Positions 17,913 to 20,940 of a stretch of 64,000 bases of DNA are shown here, piece after piece; position 1 is the stretch's first letter; each line of letters begins with the position of its first letter. The translations under genes were made by a program, and so were the position numbers. The notes beneath the pieces were generated by a model. It was not told where the DNA came from. It made no database searches and was given only the letters and a program-made list of their open reading frames with translations. Source of the stretch: Bernardetia sp. ABR2-2B (lineage in GTDB: Bacteria; Bacteroidota; Bacteroidia; Cytophagales; Bernardetiaceae); the NCBI RefSeq assembly GCF_037126435.1, contig NZ_CP147020.1, forward strand, positions 1,325,001 to 1,389,000. The letters run 5' to 3'.

Positions 17913-19265
17913 TTACTTCGCTTTTTTGTCTTTTGCAATTTTGACATTACTTTCATCTTCTAAAGTTTTAGAAATTGCATTATAAGGAGCAACCACAACT
18001 TCTTTTCCTTCTTCTACACCACTTAATATTTCTATATTATCAAAATCACTTATTCCAGTTTTTACTTGTATCATCTTTACTTTATTATCGCCATCTCTAA
18101 CAAAGATTACTTCTTTCATCTTGTCCTCCTCTATTTTTGTATTTTGATTTGTTTCTTTTTTAGGTTTCCCTCTTGGTGATTCTTCTTCATCTTTTTTCTC
18201 CTCGTCATTGTACTTACTATTTCTTACCGTAACAGCTGCCAAAGGAACAGCCAAAGCACCATTTTTACGATTAGTAATCACTTCAACACTTGCCGTCATA
18301 CCTGGTAAAAAAGGAAATTTTCTATCTTTTAAGAGTTCTTTATACGATTCTCTACTCATTCGTATCTTTACTTCAAACTCTGTAACAGCATCAGCCGTAA
18401 CAGCCTGTAAATTATTTGCAGATTTAGCAATTGAAGTAACAATTCCAATAAATTTTTGGTCTGGATAAGCATCTACCTCAACGTAAGCTGTATCATTCAT
18501 TTCGATTCTGATAATATCATTTTCATTGACATTGACTCTAACTTCCATATTTTTAAACTCTGCAATACGTAAAAGCTCTGTTCCTGTCATTTGTACAGTT
18601 CCCACAACACGTTCGCCTTGTTCTACATTCAATGAAGAAATAATTCCACTCTGAGGAGCAAAAATAGTTGTCAAAGAAAGGTTTGCTTGTGCTTCTTCTA
18701 AGGTTGCTCTAGCACTTTGAAGAGCGTATCTAGCACTTTCTACTGTTTTTTCAGCAGCTTGTAATTCAGATTCTGCCACTTTGAAAGCAGCTTCGGCAGC
18801 TTGAAAATCTTGTAACGATATTATTTTGTCTTCGTAGAGTTTTTGTTGTCTTCCAAAATCAGCTTTTGCTCTAAAGTATTGTGCTTTAGCTTGTTGCAAC
18901 CTTGCATTTGCTTGTTCGATATTTGCACCCTGCGAACCCAAAGAGGCACGAGTTCTATCAACAGCAGTTTGATACGTATCAGGACGAATTTTTAATAATA
19001 ACTGTCCTTCTTTTACAGAATCTCCTTCTTTTACTAATAATTCTGTAATTTCTCCCGAAACATCTGGCGATAATTTAACTTCTACTTCTGGATATATTTT
19101 GCCTGATGCGCTTACTCTTTCTACAATTTGAGTGCGCTTGACAGGAGCAAACTCTACTTCAATTCCGTCTTTTGCACCAAACCAACCTAGTTTTTTTCCT
19201 GCAACACCCAAAACAACAAGTAAGACAACAGCACCAATAATTATAAAAAGTTTTTTATTAGACAT
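17913..19265 (-). CDS. Periplasmic adaptor (membrane fusion) protein of a MacA/RND-type efflux pump
   Basis: The 450-residue adaptor has one N-terminal anchor helix (residues 6-24), a barrel/lipoyl half (ASGKIYPEVEVKLSPDVSGEI), a long helical hairpin at about 100-210 rich in Ala, Gln and Glu (ANARLQQAKAQYFRAK...), the second lipoyl half (TTIFAPQSGIISSLNVEQGE) and the beta-barrel with FLPGMTASVEV. A charged Lys/Glu linker near 360-390 is an insertion. No permease or ATPase adjoins; a MacB-like permease lies at 42201. It is followed, at its 5' side, by a 620-base repeat-rich gap. Confidence 0.9.
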   Translation of the reverse strand: MSNKKLFIIIGAVVLLVVLGVAGKKLGWFGAKDGIEVEFAPVKRTQIVERVSASGKIYPEVEVKLSPDVSGEITELLVKEGDSVKEGQLLLKIRPDTYQTAVDRTRASLGSQGANIEQANARLQQAKAQYFRAKADFGRQQKLYEDKIISLQDFQAAEAAFKVAESELQAAEKTVESARYALQSARATLEEAQANLSLTTIFAPQSGIISSLNVEQGERVVGTVQMTGTELLRIAEFKNMEVRVNVNENDIIRIEMNDTAYVEVDAYPDQKFIGIVTSIAKSANNLQAVTADAVTEFEVKIRMSRESYKELLKDRKFPFLPGMTASVEVITNRKNGALAVPLAAVTVRNSKYNDEEKKDEEESPRGKPKKETNQNTKIEEDKMKEVIFVRDGDNKVKMIQVKTGISDFDNIEILSGVEEGKEVVVAPYNAISKTLEDESNVKIAKDKKAK

Positions 19266-19400
19266 AAATACAAAATTAGAAGTATGAATTTTAAATATAG
19301 GATATGAAATTAACCTTGAAACAGATTAACTGAACGATTCAGCCAGTAAGTTGTTCAAGCTAATTAAAACTTACACTAAATTTGATTTTAATTTTATCAT

Positions 19401-19573
19401 AACTAACTGATGTTACGCAACTAAAAAAACGAAACTCATAACTTTAGTTATGGAAAAGCACAACAGGCTGTTTTTTTACTATTCTGTACCTGTTTTCCCA
19501 CGATTAAAATCGTGGGTTTCATTTTATGTGAGTAATTTGTAGAAATTTTATCTCTGCGTAACATCAGTAACTA
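19401..19573. mobile_element. 163-bp MITE with 14-bp perfect terminal inverted repeats and 5-bp target duplication
   Basis: The ends ACTGATGTTACGCA (19406-19419) and TGCGTAACATCAGT (19555-19568) are exact reverse complements. Both are flanked by the same AACTA (19401-19405 and 19569-19573), a target-site duplication. Inside are two small hairpins, CATAACT-TT-AGTTATG (19438-19453) and CCCACGAT-TAAA-ATCGTGGG (19497-19516), and no ORF. This is a miniature inverted-repeat transposable element mobilised by an IS elsewhere; the IS family cannot be named from the ends alone. Confidence 0.9.
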
Positions 19574-19719
19574 AAGGTTGGTTGCATCATCAATAAAATT
19601 TATCACAGTTACTTTTGTACACCAATCTTCCAGACTGGTCTGAATACTTTTTTTAGTATAAAAAAGCTACTTTAATCTTTCTGTCAGGATAAAAGGCTCA
19701 CCTACGTGTAAATAACCAT

Positions 19720-19859
19720 GAAGCTGTTTAAGAATACTCATTTTTCCTTAGAATTGGGTTGCAAACCCAGCTCTAAGGAAAAATAACACTGCCTTTGTTG
19801 GTGTTTTAGCGAAGCGACACCAACAAACATACCTATAAAAATCATTCTTAAACAACTTC
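19720..19859. repeat. Composite inverted-repeat element next to the MITE
   Basis: The outer arms GAAGCTGTTTAAGAAT (19720-19735) and ATTCTTAAACAACTTC (19844-19859) pair at 15 of 16 positions. Inside are a stem built on TTTTTCCTTAGA/CTAAGGAAAAA with a GGGTTTGCAACCC-like core, and a 10-bp stem TTGTTGGTGT/ACACCAACAA (19795-19826). The last stem resembles repeats at 38501 and 45723. No ORF is present. Confidence 0.7.
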
Positions 19860-19887
19860 CCTAATAACGTTTAATAACTACTTCTTT

Positions 19888-20940
19888 CTAAAAGTTATTT
19901 TTTTTAAAAAAATCATCAAACAGTTCTTTTGCTTTTTTTGCTGTTTCATCTACTTTTTCAGATACATTTTGTGCTGTTTGTTTGAACTGGTCATTGAGTT
20001 CCGATGATTGCGTAGTGTTTCTTGCAGACTTTGTTGCTTCATTAAAGTCATTTGCATATCCTTCTGACGCTTCTTTTACGTCTTCCCAAACAGAGGCATT
20101 TTTCTCTGCATCGGTTCTTTTAGGATAATTTCCTTGTAGTATATCGTCATAACCTCCAGAGCGCACCCAGTTTACAATCTCTAAAGCACGAGTAGAAGCA
20201 AAGGGATGAGATTGCCCAATCATATTAAAAAACTTAAATATATTATCACTTGTGTTATCCATTTTATTGTATTCTTCAGCTTGTTCTAAGAAAGCTGCAA
20301 CATCCATATTTTCAAAATCTCCACCTGCTAATTTCATAGATACACGAAGCGAAACATCTGGATTTTGAGTGGCTAAAAGTCCTGCTCGGTCTGCACTCAA
20401 TTCGCTTTTTCTGCTCCATTCTTGCAAAGCATAATAAACACCTGAAAAAATCCAGTCAGGAATTGGAAGTTTTATAACTGACCTAGAAATTTGTTGTAGA
20501 AGCACAAAAAGAGTTCTGTAAAGCATATGTCCACTCATAATATGTCCTAGTTCGTGTCCCAAGACTTCTGTTAATTCTTCATCATCAAATCGCTCTACGA
20601 GAGCTGAGTTCAAGACAATAAAAGGACTATCCATACCAACAGCAAAAGCATTCAGAACTTCACTTTGAGAAACATATACTTCTGGTCTTTTCTCTATATC
20701 CATCGTCTTGCAAACCTCTGTAAAGAGTGAATTTACTCTTCCAAACTGTTTTTCTGAAACTCTGACAGCAGAAGCCAAATACATAAGGCGAAGCGAACGC
20801 TCAGAAGTTGCACCAAAGAGCATACTTAAAAGCTTATCTAACCCTGGTACTTTTTTGAGTGAAGCTAAGGCTGCACGGTCAGCAGGATGCTCCCAAGCAC
20901 GAGAAGAAATTTGATGTAAGACTGTTTTTTTTGTGGTCAT
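19888..20940 (-). CDS. M48 family zinc metallopeptidase (HtpX/Ste24-like)
   Basis: The 350-residue protease has the zinc-binding HELGH at 129-133 (VLGHELGHIMSGHML) and the third ligand in the SELSADRAGLL segment near 190. The ASAVRVSEKQFGRV and AFAVGMDSPFIVLNSAL segments are typical of bacterial M48B proteins. There are no strong transmembrane helices except a weakly hydrophobic stretch after the active site, so it may be peripheral. The C-terminal 70 residues are charged, helix-prone and Ala/Lys-rich. Quality control of membrane proteins is the usual role. Confidence 0.92.
   Translation of the reverse strand: MTTKKTVLHQISSRAWEHPADRAALASLKKVPGLDKLLSMLFGATSERSLRLMYLASAVRVSEKQFGRVNSLFTEVCKTMDIEKRPEVYVSQSEVLNAFAVGMDSPFIVLNSALVERFDDEELTEVLGHELGHIMSGHMLYRTLFVLLQQISRSVIKLPIPDWIFSGVYYALQEWSRKSELSADRAGLLATQNPDVSLRVSMKLAGGDFENMDVAAFLEQAEEYNKMDNTSDNIFKFFNMIGQSHPFASTRALEIVNWVRSGGYDDILQGNYPKRTDAEKNASVWEDVKEASEGYANDFNEATKSARNTTQSSELNDQFKQTAQNVSEKVDETAKKAKELFDDFFKKNNF

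Follow-up and report, generated by a model that had tools for sequence, protein, structure and literature searches.

The question raised by this locus is what kind of element occupies the spacer between an RND-type periplasmic adaptor gene (17913-19265, minus strand) and an HtpX-like M48 peptidase gene (19888-20940, minus strand) in Bernardetia sp. ABR2-2B, what moved it and what it carries. The window, meaning the whole 64,000-nucleotide stretch of DNA analysed here, had been predicted to contain in this spacer a 163-bp MITE with perfect 14-bp terminal inverted repeats, AACTA on both flanks and no ORF. This description is borne out by direct reading of the bases, which places the element at 19406-19568, and the longest ORFs touching it encode 38 and 30 amino acids. 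The reading that we favour, with a probability of roughly 85%, is that the element is a MITE with IS701-type ends, moved by a helper in trans and carrying a REP-like palindrome pair as cargo.

The 173 bases at 19401-19573 consist of AACTA, a 14-bp end, 135 bp, the inverted end and AACTA. The inverted-repeat listing pairs arms at 19406-19428 and 19546-19568, 83% identical over 23 nt with the outer 14 perfect, and the end repeat occurs without mismatch at two sites in the window, both of them the ends of the element. A scan of the window for inverted repeats with exact 14-bp arms and a span of 40-400 bp found six, of which one, the present pair, is immediately flanked by a 5-bp direct repeat, whereas 40 first-order Markov surrogates produced 41 inverted repeats, none with the direct repeat. 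Judged from its sequence, the identity of the element as a MITE is firm. The original prediction had missed two internal palindromes, the left one imperfect in this copy and the right one with perfect 9-bp arms. The outer feet of the two are GAAA and TTTC, that is, they form an inverted pair.

Table 1. Features of the element at its insertion site, and loci at which the same core lies between different ends.
Feature	Position or loci	Strand	Remarks
Target duplication, left copy, AACTA	19401..19405		Sequence, aligned copies, surrogate scan
Left terminal inverted repeat ACTGATGTTACGCA	19406..19419	+	Also the ends of IS701-family elements
Left core palindrome	19435..19454		CTCATAACTTTAGTTATGGA in the window copy; many other copies read CCCATAACTTTAGTTATGGG
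Right core palindrome CCCACGATTAAAATCGTGGG, followed by TTTCATTTTA on the + strand (terminator-like)	19497..19516		Identical or near-identical palindromes adjoin Y1 genes of relatives
Right terminal inverted repeat (exact reverse complement of the left)	19555..19568	-	Inverted-repeat listing and direct reading
Target duplication, right copy, AACTA	19569..19573		Sequence, aligned copies, surrogate scan
Core with TAAGTAATTGAG ... CAATTACTTA ends	L007, L011, L013, L016, L225, L227, L235, L237		

The MITE claim was further upheld by other copies of the element, by recurring 5-bp duplications and by full-length insertion sequences (IS) with exactly these ends in other species. A search of the element's own genome (5.38 Mb in 4 contigs, 99.5% complete) returned 53 matching stretches at E<=1, of which L002, L003 and L009 are near full-length copies, 74-77% identical, while many others cover the middle only; the best-scoring other copy is 77% identical. 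At E<=0.001, matches are present in 10 of 29 genomes, the own genome included, many of them to the right palindrome alone, and the best match in any other genome has 83% identity. The element family is diverged, and the window copy has the cleanest ends among the copies read.

Alignment was tried with 14 of 25 copies displayed (43 loci), and L012, which is without a right end, was dropped. In the 13 remaining two-ended copies, the flanking 5-mers agree at all five positions in five copies, at four in five and at one or two in three (L064, L071 and L006). For control 5-mers located 5-44 bp beyond these, agreement at four or more positions is seen in 2-7% of comparisons. L004, in which the right end is recognised only with 4 mismatches and the flanking 5-mers differ, was omitted although L061 and L006, whose right ends also have 4 mismatches, were kept; with L004 included, the count of agreement at four or more positions is 10 of 14. 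The majority fraction over the 13 copies is 0.98 and 0.95 for the palindromes, 0.88 and 0.85 for the ends and 0.69 for the spacer, figures that are biased in favour of the palindromes because the copies were picked by the presence of both. Separately, core copies L019, L021 and L054 have a longer insert, acggctttagccctcagcgaagctaa, in the loop of the right palindrome, and composite copies L070 (G002:C1:3931881) and L086 (G006:C10:37016) lie ∼2.7 kb from the orthologous M48 gene, off the insertion site seen in the window.

The same ends also enclose sequences other than this core. Two additional end pairs of this kind in the own genome surround different middles and have perfect 5-bp duplications, one pair having a mismatch in one end and the other reading ACTGAAGTTACGCA; a third same-ended pair (3176074-3176289) has no duplication. 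When one mismatch is allowed, this genome has 14 sites for the end repeat and 2 for the reversed control. A looser pattern with 2 mismatches detected mostly chance sites (87+76 versus 55+48 in the reversed control) and was kept out of the counts. The exact 14-mer is present in 31 of 291 genomes of the order, its reversed control in 6. Of 20 stretches of other genomes, hand-chosen among the places with the 14-mer, 18 contain facing end pairs (up to 2 mismatches per end) around various middles, with a perfect 5-bp duplication in 8 of the 18. One exact pattern, with 120-150 bp between the ends, gave 0 matches in viral_contigs.

The clearest sign of movement in these sequences comes from a same-ended element rather than from the window copy. 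In G002, a composite copy contains in its right part a nested 73-bp element with one mismatched end, flanked on both sides by TAATA. Its counterpart in G006 is without the 73-bp insert, has a single TAATA and hence represents a related empty site; the comparison points to transposition of the same-ended element, whichever enzyme moved it. When L062 of G002 was compared with G006 for an empty site, the right flank alone aligned. On five contigs of another genome (G092: C65, C75, C77, C82 and C110), exact facing ends recur at constant spacing in elements 155 bp long, which constitute a homogeneous and probably young MITE family.

The helper type was recognised through a pair of exact facing ends in G117 that delimits 1119 bp and encloses a DDE transposase with one in-frame stop, its flanks being unmatched. 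Relatives of the 252-aa part of this transposase are found in 22 of 291 genomes, including the congeners G001 and G002. Both ends were recognised at 12 distinct transposase loci (1.1-1.2 kb), with a perfect 5-bp duplication in five (L142, L146, L147 = L172, L161 and L169); L140, L159, L141, L148, L149 and L162, for which no end pair was shown, were left out of this reading, and two IS701-like copies in G056 are without such ends. The transposases of all eight full-length relatives tested pass the cut-off of NCBIfam NF049921 (transpos_IS701_2). A wider scan returned 80 loci. Of the 70 that were examined, 58 are bounded by inverted ends of this type, for which the two ends together were allowed up to 10 mismatches to the consensus and candidate ends were ranked by consensus likeness; L308 (9 mismatches) is doubtful, and among the 12 loci that failed, several are truncated at a contig end. 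The 5-bp duplication is perfect in 22 of the 58, and 12 loci have exactly the 14-mer of the window element on both ends, 3 of these with a perfect duplication.

An end search that used no motif was applied to three annotated plasmid elements. It recovered the same ends in an IS701-family element of Polaromonas (1104 bp, duplication ATTTA) and in a cyanobacterial element annotated 'group ISAba11', which has no duplication, whereas the element annotated as ISAba11 itself (1101 bp) shares the 5-bp duplication with the MITE but ends in TAGGACTTACGCA. Proteins annotated as ISAba11 are ∼28% identical to the query. On account of the ends, the NF049921 matches, the differing ISAba11 ends and this low identity, the predicted helper type is firmly placed among IS701-family insertion sequences of ∼1.1 kb near ISAba11, as distinct from ISAba11 itself. 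The window element resembles these IS in its ends and in the 5-bp duplication and differs from them in being without any transposase. No sequence common to IS and MITE beyond the ends was seen by eye, and descent from an IS by simple internal deletion is therefore not supported.

The own genome does not appear to supply this helper. The original prediction had looked to a same-ended IS there, and no relative of the G117 transposase was detected in it at E<=1e-10; a profile search of the same genome gave matches limited to stretches of at most 78 profile positions, with E>=2.9e-6. Of the two absences that the prediction had named as counting against it, that of a full-length IS is indeed observed in this assembly, and that of further copies is not, as other copies exist. 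An IS701-type transposase is carried by 2 of 6 congeners, the other 4 giving no match. Because no such transposase was found in the own assembly while two congeners carry one, the element is probably stranded.

The insertion had also been called recent. This is loosely supported: the element is missing from the same spacer in two congeners, but the best-scoring other copy in the own genome has 77% identity. In these congeners, G002 and G006, the order of adaptor and M48 genes is kept, the M48 proteins are 88% identical and the element is absent, with the exact junction blurred. G001, G003 and G004 have other neighbours at the site, and the contig of G005 ends there. Since both G002 and G006 keep the gene order without the element, the insertion is probably younger than the split from them, unless it was lost.

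The nature of the core was approached through its palindromes. A pattern describing both palindrome types matches 34 times in the own genome, several of these in pairs, 19 times in G002 and 16 times in G009, and the reversed control gives 0 in each. In each of three congeners, G001, G002 and G005, a Y1 transposase gene is flanked on both sides by the right palindrome or a close variant of it. Among 16 Y1 loci read, two more, L195 and L205, have other palindromes on both sides, and most of the remainder have none; at L195 (G006:C48:6733), the palindrome on both sides is ACAGGGTTTTAACCCTGT. None of the loci read has the left palindrome type next to a Y1 gene, the own genome yielded no close Y1 (its best match being at E 1.1e-26), and other Y1 genes of the genus are without such palindromes.

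The association extends beyond the genus. The Y1 protein of G005 has matches in 141 of 291 genomes, and 30 returned loci were read for palindromes with arms of at least 9 and loops of 2-8, 3 being dropped at contig ends. A CCCA-type palindrome lies within 350 bp of the Y1 gene at 14 of 15 assessable loci (48-100% identity), compared with 1 of 15 at a control distance of 950-1300 bp; hairpins of any sequence stand on both sides in 10 of the same 15. At 12 remoter Y1 loci, the CCCA type is present in 1 near the gene and 1 far from it. The palindrome varies with the Y1 protein, the closest reading CCCACGATT or CCCACGAAT and others CCCACGGTT, CCCACCGAT and CCCATGGTT. The protein passes the IS200/IS605 model and reaches 37.6 bits with the REP-associated model, below its cut-off of 80, for which reason the core is called REP-like and not REP. 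Its motif, Y---Q--HH, is that of subclass 1.2 as given in the accessible part of PMC6006769, where members of this subclass are described as generally without the typical terminal IS200 structures. Since the right palindrome matches those beside the IS200-like Y1 genes of relatives, the core resembles a REP/BIME-type pair belonging to a second system, and on sequence grounds its REP-like reading is likely.

Both the own genome and congeners also contain, as read by eye, copies of the same core bounded by other ends, TAAGTAATTGAG ... CAATTACTTA (Table 1). These elements possibly represent a candidate MITE type with a TA target, and the core may either have been inserted into two kinds of MITE or have been swapped between them by recombination.

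The palindromes could instead be unrelated to Y1 and act as a two-way transcription terminator, through which an intergenic MITE would be tolerated or even be of use. In 19200-20000 a single terminator-like site is predicted (0.3 expected), namely the right palindrome and the T-rich tract that follows it, and no other part of the 13 copies is as well conserved as the palindromes. That conservation is inflated by the choice of copies, however, and the predicted terminator is on the plus strand while both neighbouring genes are on the minus strand, so that no effect on them is predicted from it. Moreover, the palindromes flanking Y1 genes in other genera are often without a T-rich tail and their association with Y1 is strong, which together leave the terminator reading unlikely.

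Far less probable are two alternatives that concern mobility itself. Movement by a transposase of another family with similar ends would accommodate the failure to detect an IS701-type transposase in the own genome, but fits poorly with the exact 14-mer on both ends of 12 IS701-family loci and with the Polaromonas element, which combines exact 14-mer ends with a 5-bp duplication; we consider it very improbable. Slightly less credit still is given to an RNA gene or structured regulatory element that is not mobile DNA. The strand does fold far better than shuffled sequences (z -5.7, DNA parameters), yet inverted ends and palindromes yield such a fold in any case, no Rfam family is matched at gathering score, no sigma-70-like promoter is detected in 19200-20000, and target duplications recur among the copies.

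The favoured reading, a MITE with IS701-type ends and a REP-like cargo, suggests the following course. By comparison, the element shares its ends and its 5-bp target duplication with the ISAba11-related IS701 group, whose members encode one DDE transposase. Such a transposase, supplied by another element, would have bound the ends, excised the element and joined it to A+T-rich target DNA cut with a 5-bp stagger. The palindrome pair of the second system would at some stage have become cargo of the MITE, the association being seen and the mechanism proposed, and the composite would then have spread as one unit by means of its IS701-type ends. The element is thus an ordinary MITE in its ends and in its likely, putative mobility, and unusual in its composite core. 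A broader proposal is that palindromes of a little-known Y1 clade have been taken up as cargo by elements with two or more unrelated kinds of ends, the IS701 type and the putatively mobile TAAGTAATTGAG type, with a DDE transposase spreading the sites of a HuH transposase and the Y1 clade having co-varying partner palindromes; we advance it tentatively, at slightly less than even odds.

Known systems share parts of this arrangement. According to the available text of PMC6382973, MITEAba12 is likewise short and gene-less with IS-like ends and a target duplication, but has a coresident IS helper and a 9-bp duplication, whereas here the duplication is 5 bp, the helper was not found and the core is composite. 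REP/BIME sequences (REPIN; PMC6006769) are likewise inverted pairs of short palindromes, and palindromes of the present kind also stand beside Y1 genes; in the window element, unlike in REP/BIME, the pair is enclosed in the ends of a DDE transposon. The foot of the core palindromes is GAAA, compared with the GTAG or CGTC tags that the title of PMC3733652 names. The interior of a Porphyromonas gingivalis MITE is also a repeat, in that case a tandem minisatellite according to the accessible part of PMC4596501, in contrast to the inverted palindromes found here. In the open-licence papers searched, which exclude most subscription titles and ISfinder, neither the end sequence ACTGATGTTACGCA, nor an IS701-linked MITE in Bacteroidetes, nor anything on transposable elements of Bernardetia was found. 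What is new here, as read from the sequence, is the enclosure of a putative REP-like core within DDE-transposon ends. An anonymous MITE family of this order is now tied to a concrete predicted helper type, which makes such ends recognisable in other genomes. From the composite core it seems that one transposition system can transport palindromes belonging to another, and candidate partner palindromes are indicated for a Y1 subclass that PMC6006769 describes as generally without typical terminal structures.

Two further repeats lie just to the right of the element. A palindromic repeat at 19738-19786 reads tttttccttaga..gggttgcaaaccc..tctaaggaaaaat and is possibly a second REP-like family, because a similar long palindrome brackets the Y1 gene of G005 at L205. 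Another dispersed repeat, containing cagtctggaagactg and taactgtgataa, adjoins the element at 19590-19645 and also adjoins the core-only copies L010 and L018.
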